DNA from: a bacterium
GTDB lineage: Bacteria > Planctomycetota > JADGBV01
Direction: 5' to 3'
Length of the DNA stretch: 33,784 bases
NCBI GenBank assembly: GCA_023261545.1
Contig: JAHFOS010000027.1
Span: 1-33,784, forward strand
Part shown: in pieces, positions 19,843 to 23,216 of the stretch
Position numbering within the stretch: the first letter of the stretch is position 1
Layout of the letters: every line of letters starts with the position of its first letter
The notes under the pieces: model-generated
What the model saw: only the letters and a program-made list of their open reading frames with translations
What the model was told of the DNA's origin: nothing
Databases searched by the model: none
Program-made: the position numbers and the translations under genes

Positions 19843-19930
19843 ATTATTATAAATCAAACACTTAATTTGTTTTTCGGGGCGATGCCGCGCCAGCTTAGCC
19901 CATGCGGGTCATTAATCCAGGGCTTGGGGC

Positions 19931-19957
19931 TAAAGGTCCTGGGATTTTTTCCGATAA
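19931..19957 (+). promoter_or_regulatory. Sigma28 (FliA)-type flagellin promoter
   Basis: TAAAGGTC-N11-TCCGATAA, compared with the sigma28 consensus TAAAGTTT-N11-GCCGATAA; about 80 nt upstream of the flagellin ATG. Confidence 0.8.
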
Positions 19958-19998
19958 TTCCTCTTGACACCGCTTCCGGGTCCTGTAGACTGGGGCGG

Positions 19999-20038
19999 TC
20001 CAAGGGACTTGGATTCAACATTTCTAAAGGAATAGAAA
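19999..20038 (+). promoter_or_regulatory. Candidate dual CsrA-binding leader of flagellin: two GGA-loop hairpins
   Basis: TCCAAG-GGA-CTTGGA (19999-20013) and TTTCTA-AAGGAA-TAGAAA (20021-20038), both perfect stems; second loop holds the SD, ATG at 20040. Confidence 0.6.
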
Positions 20039-20039
20039 C

Positions 20040-23000
20040 ATGGGGTTAAGGATTAACCATAATCTGGCGTCACTGAACGCCTCGCTCAATCTGGGACGCG
20101 CCAACAGCATGTTGTCCAAGTCCCTGGGACGGCTCTCCACGGGCCTCAAGATTAACTCGGCGGCCGATGGGCCAGCCGACCTCATTATTTCCGAGCGTAT
20201 GCGCGGCCAGATTCGGGCCCTGTCGCAGGCGACGGAAAACACACAGACGGCGATTTCCATGCTAACGACGGCGGAAGGCGCGCTCACCGAAACCAACTCC
20301 CTGCTCGTCAAGATGAAGGGGCTGGCTTTGAAGGCAGCTCAGTCCGGTACGGCCGATGCCGATGAGATCGCCGCCTCTCAGGCCGAAATTGACGCCGCGT
20401 TGGACTCCATCAACGCGATTGCACGCAACACATCCTTCGGCTCCAAGTTCCTGCTGGACGGCAGTCTTGACATCTCGGCCACGGAGGTGGATACCAACTC
20501 CGTTAATGTCTCTCTTGAGAAGGCCAACTTTGTGGGCGACACCAAGCGACTCACGGTGGATGTCACGGCGGCTTCAGCGAAGGCCCAATCCAACTTTTCC
20601 CTCAATTCCTCTGGTGCCCTTGACGTCGCCCAGTCCATCAAAGTGACTGGCAACCGTGGTTCCTCCACCATCGCCTTCTCCAAGGGGGCGACCGGCACGG
20701 ATATCGCCAAGGAGATCAATGATCAAACCACCCAGACGGGTGTGCTGGCCTCCTACAACAGTACCAAGCAGCGCATCGAATTTATCTCCAACGACTACGG
20801 CTCCACCGAGTTTGTCCAGGTCGAGGATATGGATGGGACGAATGACCTCTTGCGCGGTGACTTGAAGGAGCAGATTAAGACAGCTGAGATTACCTATGGC
20901 GGCCAGTTCAAGATCAAGGCCAAGACATCGGGTGAAGCTGGCGAGAAGATTGCCATCAAGTTCGATAAGACGAGCAACAACAGTGGCACCGCGGAAACGA
21001 TGGCGGTGACCCAGGATTCCAGCAGCGGTAAAACACAGCTCACCTTCACGTTGTCGGATGATATGACGACGTCATTGAGCCTCTTTAGCTCGTCTATTTT
21101 CGTCAATGATGGATATGACAAGAATATCGAGACCACTATTTCTGAGATCCAGGCTCTCATTCAGAACAACGTCACCGTCAACAGCTTGGTCGAGCTGGAG
21201 TTGGTTGGGGACACCAAGATTACCGATAAGGTAAGGGTGGACTCCGCGTTCACGGATTCCTATGTTCAGCTCGTCGGCGGTGCGACGGGACAGGTGGCTA
21301 CGGCGGCATCGGTTAATATCGAAGGCAGCGCCGGTGGGCGACTTGTGATCAGTGCTAAGAACGCTGGTGTGGGCGGCAACGACATCCAGATCCTCACGGC
21401 GACAAGCAGCGTTATCATGAGCGCGGCGATGGACTCCCTCGGCTCGGCGATTACCACGACCAGTGGCGCGTTCAGCGGTGGATCCCAGGGTTGGATTTTC
21501 GTTGGTGTTGGAGGGACCATCTATATCAACAGCAATGCCACGTACCGGCAGATTACGGAACAGTTGAATTCCAATACCAGCGCCAAAGAATTGGTAACGG
21601 CCTCCTTCACCGGAACAGGCCTCGATACCATGAGCACCGGCACGAGTGGCGTTCTTGGGAAATACAACTTGACGGGTGGCACGGGTTTGTCAGGTGGTGC
21701 CAGGGCGGCGTCCTTCATCAATATCGGAGGCGCTACCACGGATCTCGGGCTTATGGTGACCTCTAAGAAGCATGGAACTGAGGGTAACGGCTATGAACTG
21801 GTCATTCGCAATCGTATGTCAAGCACGGGTTCTGTTGAGGTTTATGGCAAGAGGATCATCGTCAATCTTTCCACTGCGGGTATCGGATCTGCGTTGGTCC
21901 TGACAGGCATCATCAGTGCTACCGCAGCGGGATCAGGTGCGAGTATCACTACTAACGCGGCATACGGTGGTAACTACTTCAACCAGTTCAGGTGGAGTTT
22001 TGAGTCTGATACCACTGTGAACGATGCTCCGACTGTTTCTTACGATTCGACAACGAAAACCATCAAGGTTAAGTACGAGACGACCTCCACGACGTTGGGT
22101 GCATTGAGGACGGCCATCACGGGTTCATCGGCCATCCTTGACACGGAAACAGGGCTGACGGTGGGCAACGTTTTCACGCTCACGGGTATGGGCGGTGCGT
22201 TGCCGACGGGCTCGGTCTTTGTGTCTGGTGGCGTCAATACTTCCCTTACAGGTTCTTTGACCACCATGAGTGCGGAATATTTTGGTGGAGGATCGGGCGT
22301 GGTCGGTATTGATTTCAGTGCTACCACGACGTTGGCTGGGCTGATGGGTATTATACGTGGCAACGCCACGGCCCGTGATCTCATAGATGTGGACTTTTTC
22401 GGGAGTGGAGATATCAATCTGTCCATGATCCTTTCTTATGCTGCCGTGAACCCGCTCAGTACTAATGTGAGTACGAACGCGTTCAAGAACGTGAAGGGAG
22501 TATGGGGAGATTACACCTACGTCCTTACGGGAGGTGTATCAGGAAATGTCCAGACCAACATCGTTTCCAAGAGTGGATCTGATGGTCAAGTTAAGGTGAA
22601 CGGCGTCCAGGCATCGGCCAAAAATTTGGGATTCACGTTCGACAATGGTGACGTGCGTGGAACGATAACGCTGAATGAGGCGCTCAACGCTGCTGGCAAG
22701 AAGTCTGTCTTCACGGTAGCTTCGCGTGGAGCCTTCTTCCAGGTGGGCCAGAAGGGTCAGCTCAGCTACCAGACGGGTATCGCCCTGAAGAACGTCCAGA
22801 CCTCCGGCTTAGGACGTGGATCGTACCTCAACAAGGACTTCGACACCTCCGTGGCGGAGAGCTCCACCAACAAGCGGCGTGTCGTCGGAACGCTTGATGG
22901 GATCCGCGGTGGAAGCACCTTCGCGCTCTCCAGAGATCCTTCAACGGCCGTTCAGGTCATTGACAAGGCCATCTCTGATATTGCGAGGCTCAGAGCCCAG

Positions 23001-23216
23001 GTGGGTGCCTTCATCAGCAACACCCTGGAAAGTAACCTCAATTCCTTGGGAGTCGCCTTCGAGAACCTCACGGCATCCGAATCCCGCATCCGCGATGTGG
23101 ATTTTGCGGCGGAGACGGCGGAGTTCACGAGGTCTCAGATCCTGGTTCAAGCTGGAACGTCGGTGGCGTCTCAGGCCAACGCGTCAACCCAGGCGGCTTT
23201 GCAGCTCCTTAAGTAA
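20040..23216 (+). CDS. fliC: Flagellin with large central insert (1058 aa)
   Basis: MGLRINHNLASLNASLNLGRANSMLSKSLGRLSTGLKINSAADGPADLIISERMRGQI N-terminus and SRIRDVDFAAETAEFTRSQILVQAGTSVASQANASTQAALQLLK C-terminus. Confidence 0.97.
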   Translation: MGLRINHNLASLNASLNLGRANSMLSKSLGRLSTGLKINSAADGPADLIISERMRGQIRALSQATENTQTAISMLTTAEGALTETNSLLVKMKGLALKAAQSGTADADEIAASQAEIDAALDSINAIARNTSFGSKFLLDGSLDISATEVDTNSVNVSLEKANFVGDTKRLTVDVTAASAKAQSNFSLNSSGALDVAQSIKVTGNRGSSTIAFSKGATGTDIAKEINDQTTQTGVLASYNSTKQRIEFISNDYGSTEFVQVEDMDGTNDLLRGDLKEQIKTAEITYGGQFKIKAKTSGEAGEKIAIKFDKTSNNSGTAETMAVTQDSSSGKTQLTFTLSDDMTTSLSLFSSSIFVNDGYDKNIETTISEIQALIQNNVTVNSLVELELVGDTKITDKVRVDSAFTDSYVQLVGGATGQVATAASVNIEGSAGGRLVISAKNAGVGGNDIQILTATSSVIMSAAMDSLGSAITTTSGAFSGGSQGWIFVGVGGTIYINSNATYRQITEQLNSNTSAKELVTASFTGTGLDTMSTGTSGVLGKYNLTGGTGLSGGARAASFINIGGATTDLGLMVTSKKHGTEGNGYELVIRNRMSSTGSVEVYGKRIIVNLSTAGIGSALVLTGIISATAAGSGASITTNAAYGGNYFNQFRWSFESDTTVNDAPTVSYDSTTKTIKVKYETTSTTLGALRTAITGSSAILDTETGLTVGNVFTLTGMGGALPTGSVFVSGGVNTSLTGSLTTMSAEYFGGGSGVVGIDFSATTTLAGLMGIIRGNATARDLIDVDFFGSGDINLSMILSYAAVNPLSTNVSTNAFKNVKGVWGDYTYVLTGGVSGNVQTNIVSKSGSDGQVKVNGVQASAKNLGFTFDNGDVRGTITLNEALNAAGKKSVFTVASRGAFFQVGQKGQLSYQTGIALKNVQTSGLGRGSYLNKDFDTSVAESSTNKRRVVGTLDGIRGGSTFALSRDPSTAVQVIDKAISDIARLRAQVGAFISNTLESNLNSLGVAFENLTASESRIRDVDFAAETAEFTRSQILVQAGTSVASQANASTQAALQLLK

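Follow-up and report, generated by a model that had tools for sequence, protein, structure and literature searches.

Control of flagellin by CsrA and its antagonist FliW is already known in Bacillus and other bacteria, and the CsrA-FliW module is conserved in deeper branches (PMC6529632). The facts on hag, CsrA and FliW used here, including the assignment of CsrA residue R44 to RNA binding and N55 to FliW binding, are drawn from PMC7652899 and PMC6529632. A CsrA dimer can bridge two sites 10-63 nt apart, with an optimum above 18 nt, and CsrA sites are also known within initially translated regions (review PMC7652899). In Campylobacter jejuni, two reports (PMC4894983, PMC7829508) describe the flaA mRNA as likewise a flagellin target of CsrA with FliW as the antagonist. 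The flagellin leader described here lies in the window, the whole 33,784-nt stretch of planctomycete DNA analyzed, and what is now seen in this lineage is most likely the same control.

The flagellin leader and its GGA-loop hairpins

The ATG at 20040 opens a reading frame in which both flagellin N and C domains were found (Table 1). A sequence-only reading had placed a sigma28 promoter ahead of a leader of about 75 nt, and the pattern is present: TAAA-N16-CCGATAA is the sole match in the window at up to one mismatch (0.17 expected by chance), and a FliA sigma factor is encoded in the genome with a score above the curated cut-off. Genome-wide, the strict pattern was uninformative because its matches were no more numerous than in the control (one further match, with an equal control count). 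The sigma70-like element farther downstream agrees with the consensus at 10 of 12 positions, against a shuffle mean of 0.3. A terminator-like hairpin with a T-run (19916-19943, + strand) overlaps the sigma28 promoter, and the adjacent upstream gene lies on the - strand. No Rfam family reached its gathering score within the window. Between 16015 and 29133, the flagellin gene lies among genes for GSCFA, a TylF-like methyltransferase, glycosyltransferases, an MptE/PseD-like flagellin modification protein and a SPASM protein; these flanking sugar-transfer and modification genes suggest a flagellin glycosylation locus.

Table 1. Positions of promoter, leader and coding features at the flagellin locus
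Feature	Coordinates	Strand	Remarks
Sigma28-type promoter, TAAA-N16-CCGATAA	19931..19957	+	Start expected at ~19965; fliA in genome
Possible second promoter, sigma70-like TTGACA-N16-TAGACT	19964..19991	+	Start would be at ~19998; consensus match only
Competing 10-bp stem, 19975-19984 with 20004-20013	19975..20013	+	Minimum free energy fold of 19966-20042
Hairpin 1, TCCAAG-GGA-CTTGGA	19999..20013	+	Putative upstream CsrA site, GGA1 at 20005-20007; placed as the upstream GGA hairpins of relatives
Hairpin 2, TTTCTA-AAGGAA-TAGAAA	20021..20038	+	Putative CsrA site over the SD, GGA2 at 20029-20031
Flagellin gene	20040..23216	+	1058 aa; PF00669, PF00700, PF07196
Hairpin 3, GGTTAA-GGA-TTAACC	20044..20058	+	Codons 2-7; possible third CsrA site, overlooked by the sequence-only reading

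The leader contains the two perfect GGA-loop hairpins that had been claimed, with 24 nt between GGA1 and GGA2, within the published bridging range, and with the SD in the second. The loop of hairpin 2 is an ANGGAN hexaloop containing the SD. At least one GGA-loop hairpin with at least six Watson-Crick pairs arose in 1.9% of dinucleotide shuffles of the leader and at least two arose in 0.02%; the whole window holds six such hairpins on the + strand and five on the - strand. Hairpin 2 is predicted to be weak (-2.6 kcal/mol). It was predicted from nearly every transcript start tested (the exceptions being 19980 and, to a lesser degree, 19958), with a pairing probability of 0.94-0.97 in the predicted fold of the leader from 19966.

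Conservation across the phylum and association with csrA and fliW

Of the 99 genomes in our phylum sample, 53 had matches to the flagellin N domain. Relatives were recovered by alignment of the flagellin N terminus; a full-length query found none because its patterns were drawn from the variable middle of the protein. In addition to the window's own, 100 upstream regions were extracted, and hairpins were counted in 98 non-redundant leaders. GGA-loop hairpins with at least four, five and six Watson-Crick pairs were present in 57, 41 and 30 of these leaders, respectively, compared with 16.5, 5.3 (+/- 2.2) and 1.5 in shuffles, and a control stretch farther upstream had a hairpin with at least five pairs in only 7 of 98. 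The spacing between the GGA hairpin and a GGA-containing SD clusters at 20-28 nt, a range that includes the 24 nt of the window.

We then evaluated pairing with upstream GGAs chosen solely because they lay 18-32 nt from the GGA of the SD, which avoided choosing stems by eye. The flanks of the upstream GGA had 161 paired cells, compared with 105.8 +/- 6.6 after exchanging 3' arms, and those of the SD GGA had 238 compared with 181.7 +/- 8.2; genomes without csrA and fliW had no pairing excess at the SD (43 versus 41.2). When the upstream site was anchored on GGA position only, 69% of cells were paired in register and 35-42% when the register was slid; the effect was smaller at the SD site (0.60 versus 0.32-0.54). 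An alignment of 18 selected leaders gave a covariation of 0.885 (0.264 in shuffles), with six of six pairs changed on both sides, but these leaders had been chosen for their stems and the sliding-register test is therefore the fairer one. A recurrent leader form, GGACAAGGATGTCC, fits the SELEX consensus RUACARGGAUGU (PMC7652899). The two-site layout is kept across the phylum, with covarying stems and a spacing of 20-28 nt. A like layout occurs at flagellin loci of Zixibacteria, Halobacillus, Riflebacteria, Synergistota and others, and so is not particular to this phylum. In one other genome of the sample with 16 flagellin-domain matches, most of the flagellin leaders fetched had GGA-loop hairpins.

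The host genome (288 contigs, 91% complete) encodes the two regulators that the hag model calls for. One copy of csrA (contig C272, 74.8 bits) and one of fliW (contig C261, 110 bits) were found, and their best matches among solved structures were chains D and A of 5dmb, respectively. By alignment with the CsrA chains 1t3o and 5dmb, the host CsrA retains N55 as well as R44 and is extended at its C terminus. The fliW, csrA and flagellin genes are on separate contigs here and are neighbors in many relatives.

Across the sample, csrA and fliW co-occur with each other (both in 31 genomes, fliW alone in 1, csrA alone in 6) and with flagellin. Leaders with GGA hairpins were more common where both genes were found (37 of 71 leaders versus 5 of 25), and by genome the counts were 23 of 30 versus 3 of 13 (p 0.002, in a test that treats genomes as independent); this association is blurred by genes missing from incomplete genomes. 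In genome G063, which is 91% complete, the GGA-loop hairpins of flagellin leaders are strong, with stems of up to 10 bp, and csrA and fliW were not found. Four flagellated genomes of a single family each have 9-17 csrA-like matches with no fliW detected, and the four leaders examined from this family were without GGA-loop hairpins.

The presence of csrA, fliW and fliA, the conserved GGA layout, the compensatory pairing and the enrichment together make a hag-type CsrA-FliW leader very probable. We assign a probability of roughly 0.75 to the reading that the leader belongs to a sigma28-transcribed flagellin message under such control, with CsrA binding itself inferred. The translational control and FliW-like antagonist anticipated from the sequence are thereby supported: of the checks proposed with that reading, those that could be run came out in its favor, and none gave a result named beforehand as refuting it. 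The hairpins could instead have arisen by chance, or could serve mRNA stability or SD accessibility with CsrA not involved, a view that the weakness of hairpin 2 would accommodate. Two such hairpins are rare in shuffled leaders, however, and the layout is conserved across the phylum, covaries, and is linked to csrA and fliW, which leaves this the least probable of the explanations considered here.

Competing folds and a third hairpin

The standing of hairpin 1 is more conditional. Its loop is a GGA triloop rather than an ANGGAN hexaloop, so that binding would require two pairs to open. It is also improbable from the sigma28 start because 19975-19984 pairs with 20004-20013: in the predicted fold of the full-length leader the competing stem beats hairpin 1 by only 1.8 kcal/mol, burying GGA1. 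For a transcript starting at ~19966, the predicted probability of hairpin 1 was ~0.15 when the transcript extended to 20060 and ~0.01 when it extended to 20075. Among the starts tested, hairpin 1 dominated the predicted folds from 19980 on. Predicted exposure of GGA1 at its bridging distance therefore varies with the transcription start, and a shorter transcript from the sigma70-like promoter could possibly leave hairpin 1 unopposed. Of the two hairpins as originally drawn, both sequences are present and the second is predicted to fold, but the first is not part of the predicted best fold of a full-length sigma28 transcript.

The window's leader also differs from its relatives. A covariance model of 18 phylum leaders (CANGGA hairpin plus CANGGAGGA SD) did not match it at E values up to 10 with filters off; the leader therefore lacks the CANGGA/AGGAGGA consensus of its relatives. 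Matches of the model in the host's own genome (26, all weak, best E 0.04) were treated as chance. The sole genome of the same family had just one weak flagellin-domain match, so the leaders compared are those of more distant relatives. The mismatch to the model, the outcompeted triloop and the hairpins of G063 all count against the hag-type reading.

The first two of these points, together with the textbook hexaloop of hairpin 2, which hairpin 1 does not share, favor an explanation in which the SD hairpin is the only one of the pair bound by CsrA. Hairpin 1 would then be a by-product of sequence, the stable upstream structure would be the 10-bp stem, and CsrA would act through the SD alone or with the GGA at 20011-20013 or 20050-20052. 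We consider this a serious possibility but not the probable one: the position of GGA1 agrees with the phylum-wide spacing, and a gap of 1.8 kcal/mol is within model error and the reach of protein binding. The SD hairpin as a CsrA site is the stronger claim of the two.

Hairpin 3 is a perfect 6-bp stem with a GGA triloop, its GGA (20050-20052) 21 nt past GGA2. It uses TTA, which is rare among the leucine codons (2 of 86), and only 0.64% of synonymous codon samples yield a GGA hairpin like it. With the precedent for CsrA sites in initially translated regions, these features argue for a three-site leader, in which CsrA would also bind the codon 2-7 hairpin for tighter repression or a dimer would pair hairpins 2 and 3. 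This is unlikely in our view. No counterpart was present in the 100 other leaders (101 compared), so the single case is about what chance would yield over the whole set, and hairpin 3 is possibly a chance product. Less likely still is a combined arrangement, in which the GGA hairpins stand three in a row at intervals of 24 and 21 nt, the first of them can be hidden by the competing stem, and two promoters or two folds would set the grip of CsrA on the flagellin message.

Proposed control and comparison with known systems

Under hag-type control, one pocket of a CsrA dimer would bind GGA2, in the SD loop of hairpin 2, and the other GGA1 in hairpin 1 upstream, and the bridging dimer would keep the ribosome off the flagellin message. 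Once the hook is complete and flagellin is exported, FliW would be released from flagellin, and free FliW would strip CsrA from the RNA so that flagellin translation begins. The repression and its relief by FliW are inferences, as is which of the two forms, hairpin 1 or the competing stem.

On this reading, a flagellin checkpoint that has been studied in detail elsewhere also operates in a lineage that has received little attention. The covariation shows that flagellin leaders with two GGA sites in this layout are widespread in the phylum, mostly alongside csrA and fliW, and such leaders could help to predict CsrA targets in lineages that lack genetics. Specific points on which this leader departs from the hag model, and which can be tested, are the competing stem and hairpin 3.

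Among described systems, the Escherichia coli glgC leader likewise has a GGA in an upstream hairpin loop and another at the SD, and a single CsrA dimer spans both (PMC7652899), but the gene is a different one and small RNAs, not FliW, antagonize CsrA. The Bacillus subtilis hag leader (Hag-FliW-CsrA) is alike in its flagellin gene, its two GGA sites with one over the SD, and the presence of csrA and fliW in the genome. Here, unlike in hag, the upstream GGA sits in the triloop of a perfect hairpin, a stem is predicted to compete with that hairpin, the first codons hold a third GGA hairpin, and fliW and csrA are on different contigs.
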